Shown here one piece after another: positions 49,540-57,262 of a stretch of 64,000 nucleotides of DNA (position 1 is the first letter of the stretch; every line of letters starts with the position of its first letter). Source of the DNA: an uncultured Clostridia bacterium. Its GTDB lineage: Bacteria; Bacillota; Clostridia; TANB77; CAG-508. The stretch covers positions 1 to 64,000 of the forward strand of contig CASCUT010000006.1 in assembly GCA_949155365.1 (NCBI GenBank). The letters are read 5' to 3'. The notes beneath the pieces are model-generated. The model worked only from the letters and a program-made list of their open reading frames with translations, was not told the DNA's origin and did not search any database. The position numbers and the translations under genes were made by a program.

Positions 49540-50523
49540 TTAATACGCTATAATAGCCTTAGAAAGTAATTCAAACACCTCTTCATACGGCATAAAAACA
49601 GTGCAACCGGCGGAGTAACTGTGGCCTCCACCTTTACGGAATTTGCCTTCTTTCACAAGAGTAGAACAAATTTCGTTTAAATCAACAGAGTTATCTAAAC
49701 TACGCAAAGAACCTCTAAATTCACCTTTTTCATTTTCAATTAAGAGAATCAAAAAAGTGAAAGGAACCGAGTCCTGTAGTTGTTTAACGATTGCCTTATG
49801 GTTTACCAAGTTTAAATTTTTTTCTGAAGCTAATAAGTCTTTTTGCAATAAGTAGGTGCAAAAAATAGAGTTATTAGAATCAGTAGAATAATATCCTCTT
49901 TCTAAAGTAAGTTTAAAAAGTTCCTGTGTTCTAGTACTTAAGGAACGAAGCTTAGAAGATAGACCATCCATATCAATACCAAAACTCCTAAGTTCAGAAG
50001 CAATTTTTTGGCAGTGACTGGTAACATTTAAGGTAAAATCAGAGGTATCTGAGATAAGGCCGATAGCAATACAAGTAAGAAAGTTCTTGTTTCTACAAGT
50101 AAAAGTATCATATAAGATACAGGTACAAGAGGAAGCAAGAGTATCGATAAGATTGGTATCACCATACAAAGAAATTGTTTCATGGTGATCAATACAAATA
50201 ACCTGTTTGCCATAGGCTAAAAATTCAGATCCTTGAACAAAGGAAAGACCTGGGCAGTCAAGAACTAAGACTACGTCGTATTCGTTTTTGGTAGGAGCCT
50301 TTTTCAAATATTCCATTCCAGGAACAAAAGAAAAATCAGATAAAAACTCTGGAATGATGACATCAATATTCTGTTTTTCTTTTCCCATATAGAGCAAGTA
50401 CCAAAACATAGCAAAAGAGCTAGAAATAGCATCTCCGTCAGGCCTTTGGTGAGAAAGAATAGCAAAAGTATTAGCTTCTTCTAAGATAGGGAAAATAGAG
50501 TTAGTGTTCGTCATTGATAGCAC
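49540..50523 (-). CDS. nrnA: DHH-family phosphoesterase (NrnA-like)
   Basis: A protein of 327 residues. The DHH motifs are LSHQRPDGDAISSSFA, LVLDCPG, CIDHHETIS and a DHHA1 C-terminal domain with GGGHSYSAGC. NrnA breaks down short RNAs (nanoRNA) and 3'-phosphoadenosine 5'-phosphate, and related enzymes degrade cyclic-di-nucleotide products. It overlaps the upstream gene by 23 bases, so the two are cotranscribed. Confidence 0.9.
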   Translation of the reverse strand: MLSMTNTNSIFPILEEANTFAILSHQRPDGDAISSSFAMFWYLLYMGKEKQNIDVIIPEFLSDFSFVPGMEYLKKAPTKNEYDVVLVLDCPGLSFVQGSEFLAYGKQVICIDHHETISLYGDTNLIDTLASSCTCILYDTFTCRNKNFLTCIAIGLISDTSDFTLNVTSHCQKIASELRSFGIDMDGLSSKLRSLSTRTQELFKLTLERGYYSTDSNNSIFCTYLLQKDLLASEKNLNLVNHKAIVKQLQDSVPFTFLILLIENEKGEFRGSLRSLDNSVDLNEICSTLVKEGKFRKGGGHSYSAGCTVFMPYEEVFELLSKAIIAY

Positions 50524-51184
50524 CTCCTATGTTAGGGATTTCTTCGTTAATGAATTTATCTGCGAAAGAAGAAATCGCAGACCAAAGCCTTTCATAATCT
50601 AGAATTTCACCAGTGTAACTAAGATTTTCAGAAAGATAACCATTCAGTTCCTCTCGCCATGTTTTTTCACGTCTTTTGTCAAACACTGGTAAACCGGTCA
50701 GAGGAAGGTGGTCTGGTATTAGATTGAGAGTTTCTTGACTAATATGTCCATCGAATAGCATAAGATGGTTAATTTGGGTATATCCTGCATATAAAATACC
50801 TCCATCAGATGCTTTGGCAAAAAAGCGTTCAGCGGGCCAAGATAGACCATTTCTTGGATTAATTACTTGCATGGTATTGGCATCCCAAATAAACTCGGGA
50901 ATAAGATAACTTTCAAAAAAATGATAATCCAAGTAGAGATGACAAAACATGCCTAACTTAATAGAATGATTTGCATCATAAAGCTCTTTTCTTACTGCTT
51001 TCATATCAGGAACTACAAATCCATTTACAGAAGCAGGAACCCGGTAATGAGAAGCTTTTTTGTTTTCTGGTACCACTAAATCAGGAATTAAATTTCCAGA
51101 AAAAAACTCGACCTTATTTACTTTGTTTTTAAGATGCCGATAAACTTCTTCGGCAAATGCTAAGTGATAAATAATACCTGGCAT
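50501..51184 (-). CDS. Zinc-dependent phospholipase C-like protein, function unknown
   Basis: A protein of 227 residues with histidines and acids spaced as in the zinc-dependent phospholipase C/S1-P1 fold: PGIIYHLAFAEEVYRHL, FFSGNLIPDLV, SHYRVP and GMFCHLYLDYHF. The similarity is to a broad family annotated as zinc-dependent PLC-like and not to a characterised toxin; no signal peptide is present, so it acts inside the cell. It is first in an operon with nrnA. Confidence 0.6.
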   Translation of the reverse strand: MPGIIYHLAFAEEVYRHLKNKVNKVEFFSGNLIPDLVVPENKKASHYRVPASVNGFVVPDMKAVRKELYDANHSIKLGMFCHLYLDYHFFESYLIPEFIWDANTMQVINPRNGLSWPAERFFAKASDGGILYAGYTQINHLMLFDGHISQETLNLIPDHLPLTGLPVFDKRREKTWREELNGYLSENLSYTGEILDYERLWSAISSFADKFINEEIPNIGGAINDEH

Positions 51185-52058: not shown

Positions 52059-52087
52059 TTGACAAATTATGTAAAATAATATAAAAT
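52059..52087 (+). promoter_or_regulatory. Promoter of the nucleoside-type cluster
   Basis: Consensus TTGACA, a 17-base spacer and TAAAAT, ahead of the SDR gene. It probably drives all four genes, which are separated by at most about 60 bases. Confidence 0.72.
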
Positions 52088-52146
52088 AACACAGATTTAA
52101 GTAGTAGTTTTTTTATTGAATTCAATAAAAAGAAAGGAGAGCTAGA

Positions 52147-52842
52147 ATGAAAAAAGTAGCAGTTATTACAGGGTGCAACAGAGGGGTAGGAGAAGGGATT
52201 AAAAAACGGTTATTAAAAGCAGGCTATCATGTATATGGACTTAATCGAACCACTACAGAGAACCTAAAAGAAGCAGAAGCTTATCAGGAATATCAATGTG
52301 ATGTTTCCAATCCGAAGCAGGTAGAAGAAGCATGCAAAAACATCCCTGAGAAAATTGACTTATTAGTGTTAAATGCAGGAATTCGAAAATTTGGTAAAAT
52401 TTCAGAGTTAACCGTAGAAGACTTTTCGTATTCGATTGATGTGAACTTAAAAGGTCCTTTCTATGTATTGACTTTTTTATTAGAGCGGGTAAAACTTGCT
52501 AAAGGCACGATTATTTTTATCGGTTCTCATGCTGGGCGTTATCCTTTTGGATTAGGTTCTGCCTATTGTAGTAGCAAAAGAGCAGTAGAGGCACTATCCG
52601 AATGCTTGATGGAAGAGGTAAGAAGAGAAGGCGTAAAAGTCATTCACTTATCCTTAGGTGCTATTAAAAATCGAGAACATGGCTATGAAGAAGAATGGAA
52701 AATCAAACCAGAAGAAATTGGGGAAAGTATTTTAAAGTTAGTAGACATGCCAGACAATTTATTGTTTAGTGATATTAATCTAAGACCACAATCACCCAAA
52801 ATGCTTCCCATGGAAGGCATTGAATTAATGCAGTACAAATAG
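52147..52842 (+). CDS. Short-chain dehydrogenase/reductase (PenB-like candidate)
   Basis: NAD(P)-dependent oxidoreductase of 231 residues. The cofactor motif is ITGCNRGVGEG (a variant of T-G-x3-G-x-G) and the catalytic pair is in SAYCSSKRAVEAL (Y-x3-K), with Ser in FIGSHAG. The family alone does not give the substrate. The company does: a HisG-like domain and a PurC-like enzyme follow in the same operon, as penA and penC accompany the SDR penB in pentostatin biosynthesis, where the reductase makes the 8R-hydroxyl of the diazepine ring. Assignment to that step is inference. Confidence 0.75.
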   Translation: MKKVAVITGCNRGVGEGIKKRLLKAGYHVYGLNRTTTENLKEAEAYQEYQCDVSNPKQVEEACKNIPEKIDLLVLNAGIRKFGKISELTVEDFSYSIDVNLKGPFYVLTFLLERVKLAKGTIIFIGSHAGRYPFGLGSAYCSSKRAVEALSECLMEEVRREGVKVIHLSLGAIKNREHGYEEEWKIKPEEIGESILKLVDMPDNLLFSDINLRPQSPKMLPMEGIELMQYK

Positions 52843-52852
52843 GAGGAGAGAC

Positions 52853-55066
52853 ATGAAGAAAATAGAATGCAATGCAAGTACCGTCATTGAAAAAAAGGAT
52901 TGCTTTATTGAAAGAATTCAGCAAGAAGAGGAAGTTTTGGTAAAGACTATCAATGCTTTTGGAGCTAAGTTTGAAGACCTTTCACAGTTAGAACATCTAA
53001 TGAGTATGAAAAATCCGCCACATCACCATCCGTTAACAGGACCAATTTATGTCGAAGGAGCAAAGCCAGGAGATTTCTTAAAAGTACACATTGAAGAAAT
53101 CAAATTAAAAGAAATGGCACAAATGCTTTCGAAATCGGCAGGAATTGCTCCATTAAGCAAAGCGAAAGATTTTGATTTTAGTAGTCGCTATCCAGTCATT
53201 GCAGAGGTAATCGATGAGGAAAGAAACCTTCGGTATTTCAAAAATCAGTTAAACTTAAAAGCAAGTCCTTGTATTGGAATGATTGCAACGATGCCAAAAG
53301 AAGGTGTTATAAAGACAGGACATATGGGAGAAACGGGAGGTAATTTTGATAATCCATTTCTTACCGAAGGAGTCGATATCTATTTACCAGTAGAAGTAGA
53401 AGGTGCAGGCTTATACTTAGGAGATGTTCATGCCAAACAGGCTTATGGGGAATTAAGTGGAATTGCATTAGAGGCTAGTAGCGAAATAAAGTTAAAAGTT
53501 AGCATCGTAAAGCCTTGGATTCCCTTTGAAAAACCTCCTATTCTTATCATGGGTAAGGAGCCTCTTACGAAACAGAACTCTCTTGCTATCATTGGAATAG
53601 GGAAAAACTTCAAAAATGGAGATGAAGCCGTACGAGATGCGTTCTTTAAGAGCATAGAAGTTGTAAAAAGGCTGAAACCAACCATGTCAGAAAGAATGAT
53701 ACGTTCGTTGTTATCCTTAATTGGTAATTCTATGGCAGGGCAGGCATATTCTAATACTTCAGAATCAACAAGCCAAATTTTGTTAACAGAAGAAGGGCTA
53801 AGGTCTATTTATTACACAGAAAACCCATCCATTTTGCAAGATTTAGAAATGTGTTTGTTTCAGGAAGTAGGGAGTAGTACGAAAACTAAAACGTTAATTA
53901 CCATAGGAGCGGTTAAGGGAAGACTTCAAAAAGTACTTCATCAATATTTAGTTTCCTTGGGAATTGACATTCCTAAGATTAATTCAAGGCAATTGGTTTA
54001 TGATATCGAAACAGAAAAATATGTGTTAAGGATTCATCTATTGAAATGGAAAGATATTACAAAGAATTACAACAAATTCGATTTGGTTATCTATGGAGCA
54101 GATAAATGGCTGGAAAATTCAAACAAAGCGTTTATTGCCTTGAAACATTTTGAGCAAAAAGATTGCCGAATGAGCATTTTAGTACCAGAAGAAAAAAGGG
54201 ACTATCCCATTTCCTATTTCTTAGAAAGAAACATAGCAACTACTTATCCTAATGTATTAAAGCAACATTATGCTATTCGAGATAGCCACATTGTAGAAAT
54301 GGAAGGAAGCGTAGAAGCAAGCATTAAGCTTGGTTGGGCAGATTCTATCTTTGATGTGGTAGAAACAGGAGAAACAGCAAAAGTAAATGGCTTAGTAGAA
54401 CACACCGAAGTAGTAAAATTTGGAGCAGTGTTAGCAACTGCTAGAATTGATAAATTACCATTATTTATCAATTTAGGGATAATCGAGGAAATTCCAGAAA
54501 AAAGATGTATTGCCTTTGATGGAATTGATGGTTCTGGAAAATCTACTTTAGCTAAAAAACTAATACAAAGTGGTTGCTTCAAAAATTCACCAGTCGTATT
54601 AGTAGAGCCATTTTCAGGAAAAGTAGGACGAGATGCCTTTGCACTTTGGAAAGATGCGAAATACCTTTTATGGGCTGAAATTGTAGGAAAACAGCATTGG
54701 TCAGCAAGAAATGTAGTAAATACTGTGTATGACCGTTCCATTCTTACTGCATTAGTAGATAACTTAGAAGAAGGAGGAAAAGAACAAGCACTCAAAGTAA
54801 TAAAGGCTTGGAAACCACTTCCAGACCTATTATTCTACTGTAAATTGGATGCTAAAATTGCATTTGAAAGAAATCAGGCAAGAAAGGAACACGATGAATT
54901 CGAAGAATGGGAGTCATTAAAGCATTATGAAGAGAAGTATGAAGAAGCGGTAAACTTTTTAACAGAAAACAGTCATGTTCAAGTAATTACGATTGATGCA
55001 AGCAAATCGACACAAGAAAACATCGAAAGAATAAAGGAGGTCTTAACACTTGAAAAATTTATCTAA
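52853..55066 (+). CDS. Trifunctional fusion: acetamidase/formamidase-like, HisG-like, thymidylate kinase-like
   Basis: A cytoplasmic protein of 737 residues in three parts. Residues 1-230 are acetamidase/formamidase-like (GPIYVEGAKPGDFLKV, TGHMGETGGNFDN, LYLGDVHAKQAYGE). Residues 230-330 are a helical linker of unclear origin. Residues 347-535 match ATP phosphoribosyltransferase (HisG): GAVKGRLQK, DLVIYGADKWLE, ATTYPNVLKQHY, VEMEGSVEASIKLGWADSIF then DVVETGETAKVNGL. Residues 550-735 are a P-loop nucleotide kinase (AFDGIDGSGKSTLAKK at 553, YDRSIL near 626). No his operon is nearby. A HisG-kinase union is known in fungal Cns3 (cordycepin/pentostatin). Function is inferred. Confidence 0.82.
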   Translation: MKKIECNASTVIEKKDCFIERIQQEEEVLVKTINAFGAKFEDLSQLEHLMSMKNPPHHHPLTGPIYVEGAKPGDFLKVHIEEIKLKEMAQMLSKSAGIAPLSKAKDFDFSSRYPVIAEVIDEERNLRYFKNQLNLKASPCIGMIATMPKEGVIKTGHMGETGGNFDNPFLTEGVDIYLPVEVEGAGLYLGDVHAKQAYGELSGIALEASSEIKLKVSIVKPWIPFEKPPILIMGKEPLTKQNSLAIIGIGKNFKNGDEAVRDAFFKSIEVVKRLKPTMSERMIRSLLSLIGNSMAGQAYSNTSESTSQILLTEEGLRSIYYTENPSILQDLEMCLFQEVGSSTKTKTLITIGAVKGRLQKVLHQYLVSLGIDIPKINSRQLVYDIETEKYVLRIHLLKWKDITKNYNKFDLVIYGADKWLENSNKAFIALKHFEQKDCRMSILVPEEKRDYPISYFLERNIATTYPNVLKQHYAIRDSHIVEMEGSVEASIKLGWADSIFDVVETGETAKVNGLVEHTEVVKFGAVLATARIDKLPLFINLGIIEEIPEKRCIAFDGIDGSGKSTLAKKLIQSGCFKNSPVVLVEPFSGKVGRDAFALWKDAKYLLWAEIVGKQHWSARNVVNTVYDRSILTALVDNLEEGGKEQALKVIKAWKPLPDLLFYCKLDAKIAFERNQARKEHDEFEEWESLKHYEEKYEEAVNFLTENSHVQVITIDASKSTQENIERIKEVLTLEKFI

Positions 55067-55865
55067 AACCTACCAATACTTAAAAAATGTTGATTTTTCA
55101 AAGTTAGAAATCATTGCAGATGGGAAATCAAAAACCATTTATGCCTTAGATGAAAACCTTGCGATTATGTTTTATAAACCGCATTTAAGAAGTGTTACCA
55201 ACCAAAGGGAAGGAATCATTGAAGGAACCGATATTTACCGGATGTATGCCACGATGTTTTTCTTAAACTTAATGGAAGAAAACGGAATTCCTACCGAAAG
55301 AGTCGAAAACAAGATTTTAGACATTAATGGGAGAATGGGAATTCTAATTAAACGGTGTAAACCAGTTCCAATCGAATGGATTCGAAGGTATTATGCAGCA
55401 GGTTCGATTGTCAAACTCTTTCCAATCTTTGTGAAAGAAGGCGATCAATTTGACCCACCTTTAAACAAATACGACGCTAAGATTGATGTAAGTTTGACTG
55501 GTGGAATTGATGACCCAACAATGAACGAAAGCTATATTACAGGTCTTCATCTTTTAAGCAAAGAGCAGTTTGATGAAGCAGATAAAATGCTTTCTCGTAT
55601 TGGAGATATCTTAAATGAGGTATATACCAAAGCAGGAATTAAGTTAGTAGATGTAAAAATGGAATTTGGCATCTTAGATGGAAAAATGATTTTAATTGAT
55701 GAACTGAGTCAAGACTGCATGAGAGCAAATGATATGGTAACAGGAGAAACCCTTACCAAAGACGCTTATCGACAGTGGAAATCACCAGAGGAAGTTTTAG
55801 CAACTTATGAGAAGTTTTTAAACCGGATGTGCCCAGATTATCGAAATCTGGTAGTAACCATATAA
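55050..55865 (+). CDS. SAICAR synthetase (PurC)-like enzyme (PenC-like candidate)
   Basis: A protein of 271 residues, a little longer than housekeeping PurC. It shows KLEIIADGKSKTIYAL (nucleotide-binding strand), VENKILDINGRMGILIKRCK, EWIRRYYAAGSIVK, LTGGIDDPTMNESYI and KLVDVKMEFGILDGKMILIDEL, all in PurC order. PurC ligates aspartate to CAIR. No other purine genes except a PurA-like one lie near, and the neighbours suggest a secondary role like PenC in pentostatin biosynthesis. The start is TTG with AAAGGAGG; it overlaps the preceding gene by 17 bases. Confidence 0.85.
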   Translation: MKNLSKTYQYLKNVDFSKLEIIADGKSKTIYALDENLAIMFYKPHLRSVTNQREGIIEGTDIYRMYATMFFLNLMEENGIPTERVENKILDINGRMGILIKRCKPVPIEWIRRYYAAGSIVKLFPIFVKEGDQFDPPLNKYDAKIDVSLTGGIDDPTMNESYITGLHLLSKEQFDEADKMLSRIGDILNEVYTKAGIKLVDVKMEFGILDGKMILIDELSQDCMRANDMVTGETLTKDAYRQWKSPEEVLATYEKFLNRMCPDYRNLVVTI

Positions 55866-55885
55866 CAATAAACAAGAGCAAAATG

Positions 55886-55906
55886 CGGGTATCGAAAAGA
55901 TACCCG
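55886..55906 (+). promoter_or_regulatory. Intercistronic hairpin
   Basis: CGGGTATC pairs with GATACCCG across five bases between the PurC-like and PurA-like genes, with no T run. It probably adjusts relative expression or RNA stability. Confidence 0.5.
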
Positions 55907-55924
55907 TATAGAAAGGAAGGCAAG

Positions 55925-57220
55925 ATGAAAGTAGACGTAATTGTAGGCGGTTTATATGGAGATGAAGGAAAAGGTAAAGTAGTAAGTTGTTTAGGAAGTA
56001 AGAACCAATATGACTATGTATTTCGGGTAAATGCTTCTACTAATGCCAGCCATTCAGTGCAGTTAGAAGGTTCTGATAAAGTTATTATCACCAAACAGTT
56101 ACCTTCCGTTTTCTTTCAGGAAGAAGTAAAATTTGTAGTTGGACCAGGAGCAGTACTGAATTTAACGGCATTAAGAGAGGAAGTATATGAAAGGCCAGAT
56201 GACATTAGAGATAGAGTGAATATTGCCTCTACCATTGCTTTGCTGATTGAACCCTACATTGAAAAAACAGTAGGTTCTACTATTTCAAAGTCCTTAGGAA
56301 GTACCAATCAAGGAACAGGAGTGGCAGTAGTAGCAAGAACAAGAAGGCATTGTTTAAGACTATATGATGTACAAAATTGTGTCGAAGGAAGAATGAGAAA
56401 AGAAGAATTAATTGAAAAAATCATTTTTACTTCCATTGAAACAGATGAAGGCTACTTTTCTAAGAAACCCAAAAGTTATTTTGTTCAAATTGCAGAAGAA
56501 TTATTGGAAGATTATAAAGCCATTGTTCGAAAAGTTGGTGAATTTTGCATTGATTATACAAAATTCTTAAATGAAATACCAGAAGAAAGCAAGGTATTAA
56601 TAGAAGGTTGTAATGGCATTATGTTAGACAATCTTCACGGTCTGAATCCTTATACAACAAGTGCTTCTACGGCTATCAATGCATTAATGAATGGAGCCAA
56701 TATTTCGCCCTATGAATTAAACGATTCCTACATCATTTGCACAGGCTATTTCTGTTGTTTAAATCGGAGGCCATTTCTTACGGAAATGTCAGAAGAAGAG
56801 GCAGAAAAGATTTATGTTAACAATGATGAAGTAGATAACGCAGAAGGAATGCGAAGAAGAGTGGGATGGTTTGACCTTCCTACCTTAAGAAAAGCACTTA
56901 CTGGGCATAAACATGCTAAACTAATCATGAATAAGCTTGACATTATGAAAGACTTAGAAACCATAAAAGTATGTACGAAATACCTCTTAGCAGATGGAAC
57001 AGAAGTATCTTACATGCCGGATAATCTTTTAGAAGTAGAAGAAGCAATGCCGGTCTATGAAGAATTAGAAGGCTGGGGGGATATCTCGCAGGTAAATAGC
57101 AAAGAGGAATTACCAATAGCATTAAGGAAATTTTTAGAATTTATCGAAAAAGAAACCAACTTTGAAGTTGCTTATATTGGCAATGGAAGAGGACAGGAAG
57201 CTCTTATTAAAATGAAATAG
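55925..57220 (+). CDS. Divergent adenylosuccinate synthetase (PurA)-like enzyme
   Basis: A protein of 431 residues, the normal PurA length. Visible PurA motifs are GGLYGDEGKGKVVS (with the catalytic Asp), NASHSVQLEGSDKVI (catalytic His), STNQGTGVAVVARTRR, VLIEGCNGIMLD, AEGMRRRVGWFD and NKLDIMKDLETI. Many usually invariant surroundings differ (for example QWGDEGKGKI and NAGHT in housekeeping enzymes), so it is a paralogue and may act on another nucleotide. PurA adds aspartate to IMP using GTP. It keeps the GDEGKGK Asp that phage PurZ lacks. Start chosen after AAAGGAAGG. Confidence 0.85.
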   Translation: MKVDVIVGGLYGDEGKGKVVSCLGSKNQYDYVFRVNASTNASHSVQLEGSDKVIITKQLPSVFFQEEVKFVVGPGAVLNLTALREEVYERPDDIRDRVNIASTIALLIEPYIEKTVGSTISKSLGSTNQGTGVAVVARTRRHCLRLYDVQNCVEGRMRKEELIEKIIFTSIETDEGYFSKKPKSYFVQIAEELLEDYKAIVRKVGEFCIDYTKFLNEIPEESKVLIEGCNGIMLDNLHGLNPYTTSASTAINALMNGANISPYELNDSYIICTGYFCCLNRRPFLTEMSEEEAEKIYVNNDEVDNAEGMRRRVGWFDLPTLRKALTGHKHAKLIMNKLDIMKDLETIKVCTKYLLADGTEVSYMPDNLLEVEEAMPVYEELEGWGDISQVNSKEELPIALRKFLEFIEKETNFEVAYIGNGRGQEALIKMK

Positions 57221-57227
57221 TGATACA

Positions 57228-57262
57228 AAACCGCAGGTTCTAACTAGAAACTGCGGTTTACC
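57228..57262 (+). terminator. Terminator of the nucleoside-type cluster
   Basis: AAACCGCAG pairs with CTGCGGTTT, with further pairing of TTCTA/TAGAA inside. It ends the four-gene unit right after the PurA-like stop. Confidence 0.75.

Follow-up and report, generated by a model that had tools for sequence, protein, structure and literature searches.

An amidase-HisG-kinase operon of an uncultured Clostridia bacterium as a possible reduced variant of the coformycin-type pathway

Introduction

The locus studied here raises the question of whether a short operon from an uncultured Clostridia bacterium (GTDB lineage Clostridia; TANB77; CAG-508) encodes a coformycin-type nucleoside pathway. The operon lies in a 64,000-nt stretch of DNA (assembly GCA_949155365.1, contig CASCUT010000006.1, positions 1 to 64,000), which as a whole is referred to as the window. 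Pentostatin is a potent adenosine deaminase inhibitor. Coformycin synthesis proceeds through HisG, HisE, HisI, HisA, a SAICAR-synthetase homologue and a short-chain dehydrogenase/reductase (SDR). The pathway reportedly shares the early steps of histidine synthesis; the SAICAR-synthetase homologue is said to turn the common intermediate into 8-ketocoformycin-5'-phosphate, which the SDR then reduces.

In the pentostatin (pen) cluster, PenA is HisG-like, PenB is an SDR acting last and PenC is described as homologous to SAICAR synthase, its function being unclear; the coformycin (cof) cluster strikingly resembles it (PMC12648386). In adechlorin clusters, genes for HisG-like and SAICAR-synthetase proteins are accompanied by a recruited HisA homologue, AdeK (PMC13055916). 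In Cordyceps, the kinase-HisG fusion Cns3 has been tied to pentostatin, and one of two reviews gives its role in heterologous cordycepin synthesis as unconfirmed (PMC8869658, PMC8719641). The pentostatin-type clusters presented in these papers belong to actinomycetes and fungi (PMC13055916, PMC12648386, PMC8869658, PMC8719641), and the titles and abstract openings of the papers returned by literature searches mention no coformycin cluster from Clostridia. A self-contained operon in a small-genome Clostridia lineage would show that this chemistry arose in, or moved to, another lineage.

Results and Discussion

Layout of the operon and proposed pathway

Reading the window by open reading frames and Pfam, we found four plus-strand genes that form one tight operon at 52147-57220, separated in order by 10 nt, a 17-nt overlap and 59 nt. 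This agrees with a preliminary description of the locus, which had placed SDR, HisG-like, PurC-like and PurA-like genes, tightly packed, at this position and on this strand. The SDR reductase (52147-52842; PF00106, E 9e-38) stands first, as it does in the conserved core order, and is predicted to perform the final ketone reduction, in the manner of PenB and CofA. It is followed by a 737-aa fusion (52853-55066) of three Pfam domains: an acetamidase/formamidase-like domain (52853-53881, residues about 1-343; E 4e-26), a HisG-like phosphoribosyltransferase domain (53882-54487, residues about 344-545; PF01634, E 5e-23; TIGR00070, 93.5 bits for a cut-off of 75.75) and a thymidylate-kinase-like domain (54488-55066, residues about 546-737; E 2e-11). 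Among the 50 matches listed for the model of the fusion, a list that one domain can fill, no HisG chain appears. The PurC-like gene, a SAICAR-synthetase homologue (55050-55865; PF01259, E 3e-36), begins with TTG after AAAGGAGG, and its product is the predicted ring-expansion enzyme, similar in role to CofB and PenC. The accessory fourth gene (55925-57220; PF00709, E 2e-83) encodes a PurA-like GTP-dependent ligase with an altered aspartate loop; its start is most likely at 55925, in preference to a GTG at 55829. Pairwise comparison with relatives gave dN/dS (ratio of nonsynonymous to synonymous substitution rates) of about 0.04-0.12 for all four genes, at dS values above 1.7 that are near saturation.

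We give about even weight to the reading that this operon is a reduced variant of the coformycin-type pathway, starting from an adenine nucleotide and ending with a purine nucleotide whose ring is expanded (1,3-diazepine), a product predicted to block adenosine-processing enzymes. The HisG domain would couple phosphoribosyl pyrophosphate to N1 of the adenine nucleotide; ring opening and isomerisation of the added sugar would yield an intermediate like PRFAR (phosphoribulosylformimino-aminoimidazole carboxamide ribonucleotide); the PurC-like enzyme would close the seven-membered ring to give a keto-coformycin-type 5'-phosphate, and the SDR would reduce the ketone of the latter. At a minimum, the amidase domain joined to HisG may open the ring. 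Preparing the nucleotide, either as substrate or as product, is probably the part of the fused kinase. If such inhibitors are released, adenosine levels around these bacteria could change.

Like the pen cluster of Streptomyces antibioticus and the cof cluster of S. kaniharaensis, the operon groups a HisG-like protein, an SDR and a SAICAR-synthase homologue (PMC12648386). Unlike them, it has amidase and thymidylate-kinase-like domains fused to HisG, no S-adenosylhomocysteine-hydrolase or phytoene-dehydrogenase-like genes were seen beside it, and its host, of a small-genome Clostridia lineage, has no detected HisI or HisA. Cns3 of Cordyceps militaris likewise unites HisG with a nucleoside/nucleotide kinase in a single chain (PMC8869658, PMC8719641), whereas the order HisG then kinase, the thymidylate-kinase type of the kinase and the PurC-like partner set the window's fusion apart from it.

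Two forms of the operon

The operon is present in 7 of 191 sampled genomes of the order, and six further ones matched only in the HisG part, at 28-32%. In samples of the class and the phylum, for which up to four candidates were scored per genome, the operon was found in 2 of 391 genomes (E <= 1e-40; both from the same order) and the PurA-like subfamily in 1 of 398 (E <= 1e-130), respectively. A scan of genome contigs with two short patterns produced 15 loci, 13 of them good and two weak, the latter from Chloroflexota (L061, L062); 6 of the 13 good loci were assigned to genomes already found, and 7 more carriers were contributed. Protein searches for relatives returned 68 listed matches in one case and, in two others, were read for 120 of 294 and 120 of 2601. 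Altogether there are 14 carriers, the window's genome among them, and they divide evenly into two types.

In the fused type (the window's genome, G098, G054, G026, G191, G192 and G193) the order is SDR, amidase-HisG-kinase fusion and PurC-like, and three of these operons continue with the PurA-like gene; G192 was typed by its PurC alone (79% identical), as a contig end falls just upstream of it. In the split type (G059, G019, G123 and G194-G197) the order is SDR, separate amidase, HisG-kinase, PurC-like, a protein of about 150 aa and a HisA-HisI fusion. The PurA-like gene comes first in two split-type operons, and in two the 150-aa protein is an extension of PurC; it has no Pfam match, and model and alignment place it near HisE. 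Six split-type operons (L027, L029, L057-L060) end with an NrtR-like winged-helix regulator; the seventh runs into a contig end.

Step by step, the genes of the split type correspond to the coformycin scheme outlined above: the middle steps would fall to genes of their own, HisI and HisA being assigned by family match and the HisE-like protein solely from model and alignment. In Streptosporangiaceae, adechlorin (ade/ada) clusters likewise combine a HisA homologue with HisG-like and SAICAR-synthetase genes (PMC13055916); unlike these, the split type adds HisI and the HisE-like protein, bringing the early histidine steps into one operon. As it seems to hold every predicted step, it offers a compact test bed; the fused type is the place to ask whether the pathway can do without HisE, HisI and HisA. 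Comparison of gene neighbourhoods, which the preliminary description had proposed, revealed sister operons that join HisG, HisI, HisA, a HisE-like protein, PurC-like and SDR. Of the features of a coformycin/pentostatin-type cluster, the window's operon has a HisG-like protein outside histidine synthesis, a PurC homologue that is not a housekeeping enzyme and an adjacent SDR.

The middle steps in the fused type

These same sister operons provide both the strongest support for the proposed pathway and the strongest objection to it. The HisA-HisI fusion occurs in 7/7 split-type operons and 0/7 fused-type genomes, no match to it being found at E <= 1 in the window's genome or in the six others of the fused type. 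A HisI model gave no match in 4 of the 7 fused-type genomes, and a HisA-family model gave only weak matches in those searched. Access to both HisI and HisA activity was hence found for all seven split-type relatives and not for the window's genome. The lack of HisI and HisA matches weighs against the proposal: as it stands, the coformycin route is not supported for the window's genome, where it could not run unchanged. The fused amidase is the candidate for bridging the gap to the PurC step. Because access to HisI and HisA was looked for and not found, we do not count the window's operon among the coformycin/pentostatin family, and class it instead as a variant that probably functions in a similar way. 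The coformycin/pentostatin-type reading of the preliminary description has good support where the operon family is concerned, and only partial support for the window's copy.

HisA-family matches of 27-35 bits were also observed in frames of about 326 aa from carriers and non-carriers alike (e.g., G098:C2:192784-193134, L045); these are probably other TIM barrels.

The clean division between the two types is what would be expected if the fused type, after losing HisI and HisA and, from its operon, HisE, had left the coformycin route, making a different nucleotide from the N1-phosphoribosyl adenine nucleotide, with the amidase, PurC-like, SDR and PurA-like proteins acting as tailoring enzymes. 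Neither a HisE-like nor an NrtR-like gene was found in the window or in 9 loci of the six other fused-type genomes (the HisE-like family was searched for in these loci, not genome-wide), and the fused form makes its own branch in the HisG tree (95/98) and in the PurC tree (94/98). The PurC-like residues common to both types are nevertheless many and specific (KPHLRS, RYYA, SQDC.RAND), which suggests the same substrate, and the SDR and the gene order are also retained. We regard departure from the route as a possible, if somewhat unlikely, explanation.

Trees and history

Both the HisG-like and the PurC-like proteins form one clade apart from the sampled housekeeping enzymes (100/100, on long branches), in line with the earlier view that they are not enzymes of primary metabolism. 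The trees comprise 13 of the 14 carriers, G192 being left out with its operon cut; sequences with too little filled alignment were dropped (L105 from the PurC tree, L016 and L021 from the HisG tree), and the PurC tree carries a warning that long branches meet. In the latter, the window pairs with G054, which belongs to another family (81% identical; support 91/90), and not with G098 of the same genus. As PurC groups them in this way, transfer within the order is hinted at; the pairing is not repeated in the HisG tree.

Relatives on plasmids were considered and rejected. The 48 plasmid records with a PurC match are at most 31.8% identical, and the least similar full-length one (L101), whose neighbours by eye are a gene resembling PurF and, on the opposite strand, an SDR, was taken as ordinary purC, as it groups with a Paracoccus plasmid purC (100/100).

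Housekeeping pathways of the host

Family searches of the window's genome (completeness 94.8%, contamination 5.53%) returned neither a second PurC nor a second HisG, and no HisI, HisE or PurH, the remaining pur genes lying outside the search; the HisA family gave a single match of 22.5 bits, below cut-off. In 14 control genomes, each of the families PurC, HisG, HisI, HisE, HisA and PurH was detected in 12 to 14. The host seems incapable of making histidine or purines de novo, and a role of the operon in either is unlikely because HisI, HisE and PurH were not found.

The only HisG and PurC found in this genome being those of the operon, one may think of remnant housekeeping copies, or of a bypass leading from ATP back to purine nucleotides; PurH is present, moreover, in the split-type carriers G123 and G194. 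For the other 12 of the 14 carriers, among them the window's genome, the search did not return PurH, and the three split genomes searched with the HisA/HisF family have one strong match each. In addition, the operon proteins score far under housekeeping cut-offs (PurC-like, 91.6 bits with TIGR00081 against 189.9; PurA-like, 252.8 bits against the PurA equivalog cut-off of 395.55), while a separate housekeeping PurA scores better, at 437.9 bits. We consider a role in primary metabolism improbable, and the operon genes unlikely to be housekeeping copies. The preliminary description had asked whether the genome has separate housekeeping copies, and had reasoned that a genome without them would point to primary metabolism. 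A separate copy was found for purA, and none for purC or hisG; to the letter this is the adverse case, yet both pathways otherwise seem to be missing as well.

The PurA-like enzyme

Of the 14 carriers, 5 have a close orthologue of the PurA-like protein (63% or more), always within the operon; 7 non-carriers have none. Like housekeeping PurA and phage PurZ, the PurA-like protein keeps the catalytic stretches GDEGKGK, NASH and NKLD. Unlike them, it has lost the TTTGR loop, which we take to be aspartate-binding: the window's protein reads EVDNAEGM at this place, and E.D.AE replaces TTTGR in 15/15 aligned rows of the PurA-like family (A7). Judging from this substitution, the enzyme probably works with an amine other than aspartate, and in those operons that have it would make a companion or tailored nucleotide.

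The co-occurrence of a PurA-like enzyme and a thymidylate-kinase-like domain also brings to mind nucleotide modification or anti-phage functions of the Z-genome kind, with the PurA-like protein as PurZ and the kinase supplying deoxynucleoside triphosphates, and PADLOC gave matches, weak ones, to the kinase domain. The PurZ model, however, scores 88 bits against a cut-off of 300; in IMG/VR no relative was found in 19 stretches with PurC-like patterns or 94 with HisG-kinase patterns; and among the matches listed, PurA is at most 32% identical both in IMG/VR (best 80 of 544) and in phage records (15 of 208). This explanation is the least credible of those considered, and we hold it very improbable.

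The reduced coformycin-type pathway may be extended to a fuller scheme, in which the fused operons represent a new shortened route, with the amidase-HisG-kinase protein coupling phosphoribosyl pyrophosphate to the adenine nucleotide, opening the ring and replacing HisE, HisI and HisA, and with the PurA-like enzyme making a companion analogue from a non-aspartate donor, and in which the split relatives keep all four early histidine functions. Taken as a whole, this scheme is speculative and rather doubtful.

Other PurA paralogues were observed. A second one in the window's genome (G000:C20:13382-14827; L005, L032:8371-9846) has 491 aa, is 23% identical to the operon protein and lies between a gene of 299 aa and one that by eye looks like a P-loop kinase. 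A third, short one (G000:C28:88-1131; L006, L033:49-1197) has 382 aa, and PurA-like frames of 362-370 aa resembling it occur in G122, G195, G196 and G197. Three E.D.AE-type proteins (P0236, P0240, P0246) are extended at the C-terminus by some 140 residues, which by eye include a P-loop and look kinase-like.

Flanking genes and signals

Upstream of the operon, a minus-strand gene (50501-51184) has weak similarity to PF00882, Zn-dependent phospholipase C (score 24, cut-off 26.8). Its product is 31-36% identical over 94-118 residues to that of a gene inside four split-type operons, and it is on this resemblance a possible partner of the operon. In two fused-type genomes, a UMPH-1 type 5'-nucleotidase gene is convergent with the operon (L051:1518-2309; L052:8855-9652; PF05822, E 5e-45 in L052, the L051 copy being 75% identical) and is a candidate for taking off the 5'-phosphate.

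The operon had also been described as framed by one promoter and one terminator. A plus-strand promoter-like site, TTGACA-17-TAAAAT (52059-52087), has 11/12 consensus matches; sites of this class are no more frequent than in shuffles (20 found, 27.5 expected). A terminator-like hairpin on the same strand (57228-57259; -17 kcal/mol) folds far better than shuffles (z -4.9), despite which it is missing from the terminator-scan output. Between the PurC-like and PurA-like genes lies a second hairpin, absent from the preliminary description and also strong, of 11 bp (55883-55909, plus strand; -17.7 kcal/mol, z -7.5), which may set the expression of the accessory PurA-like gene apart.
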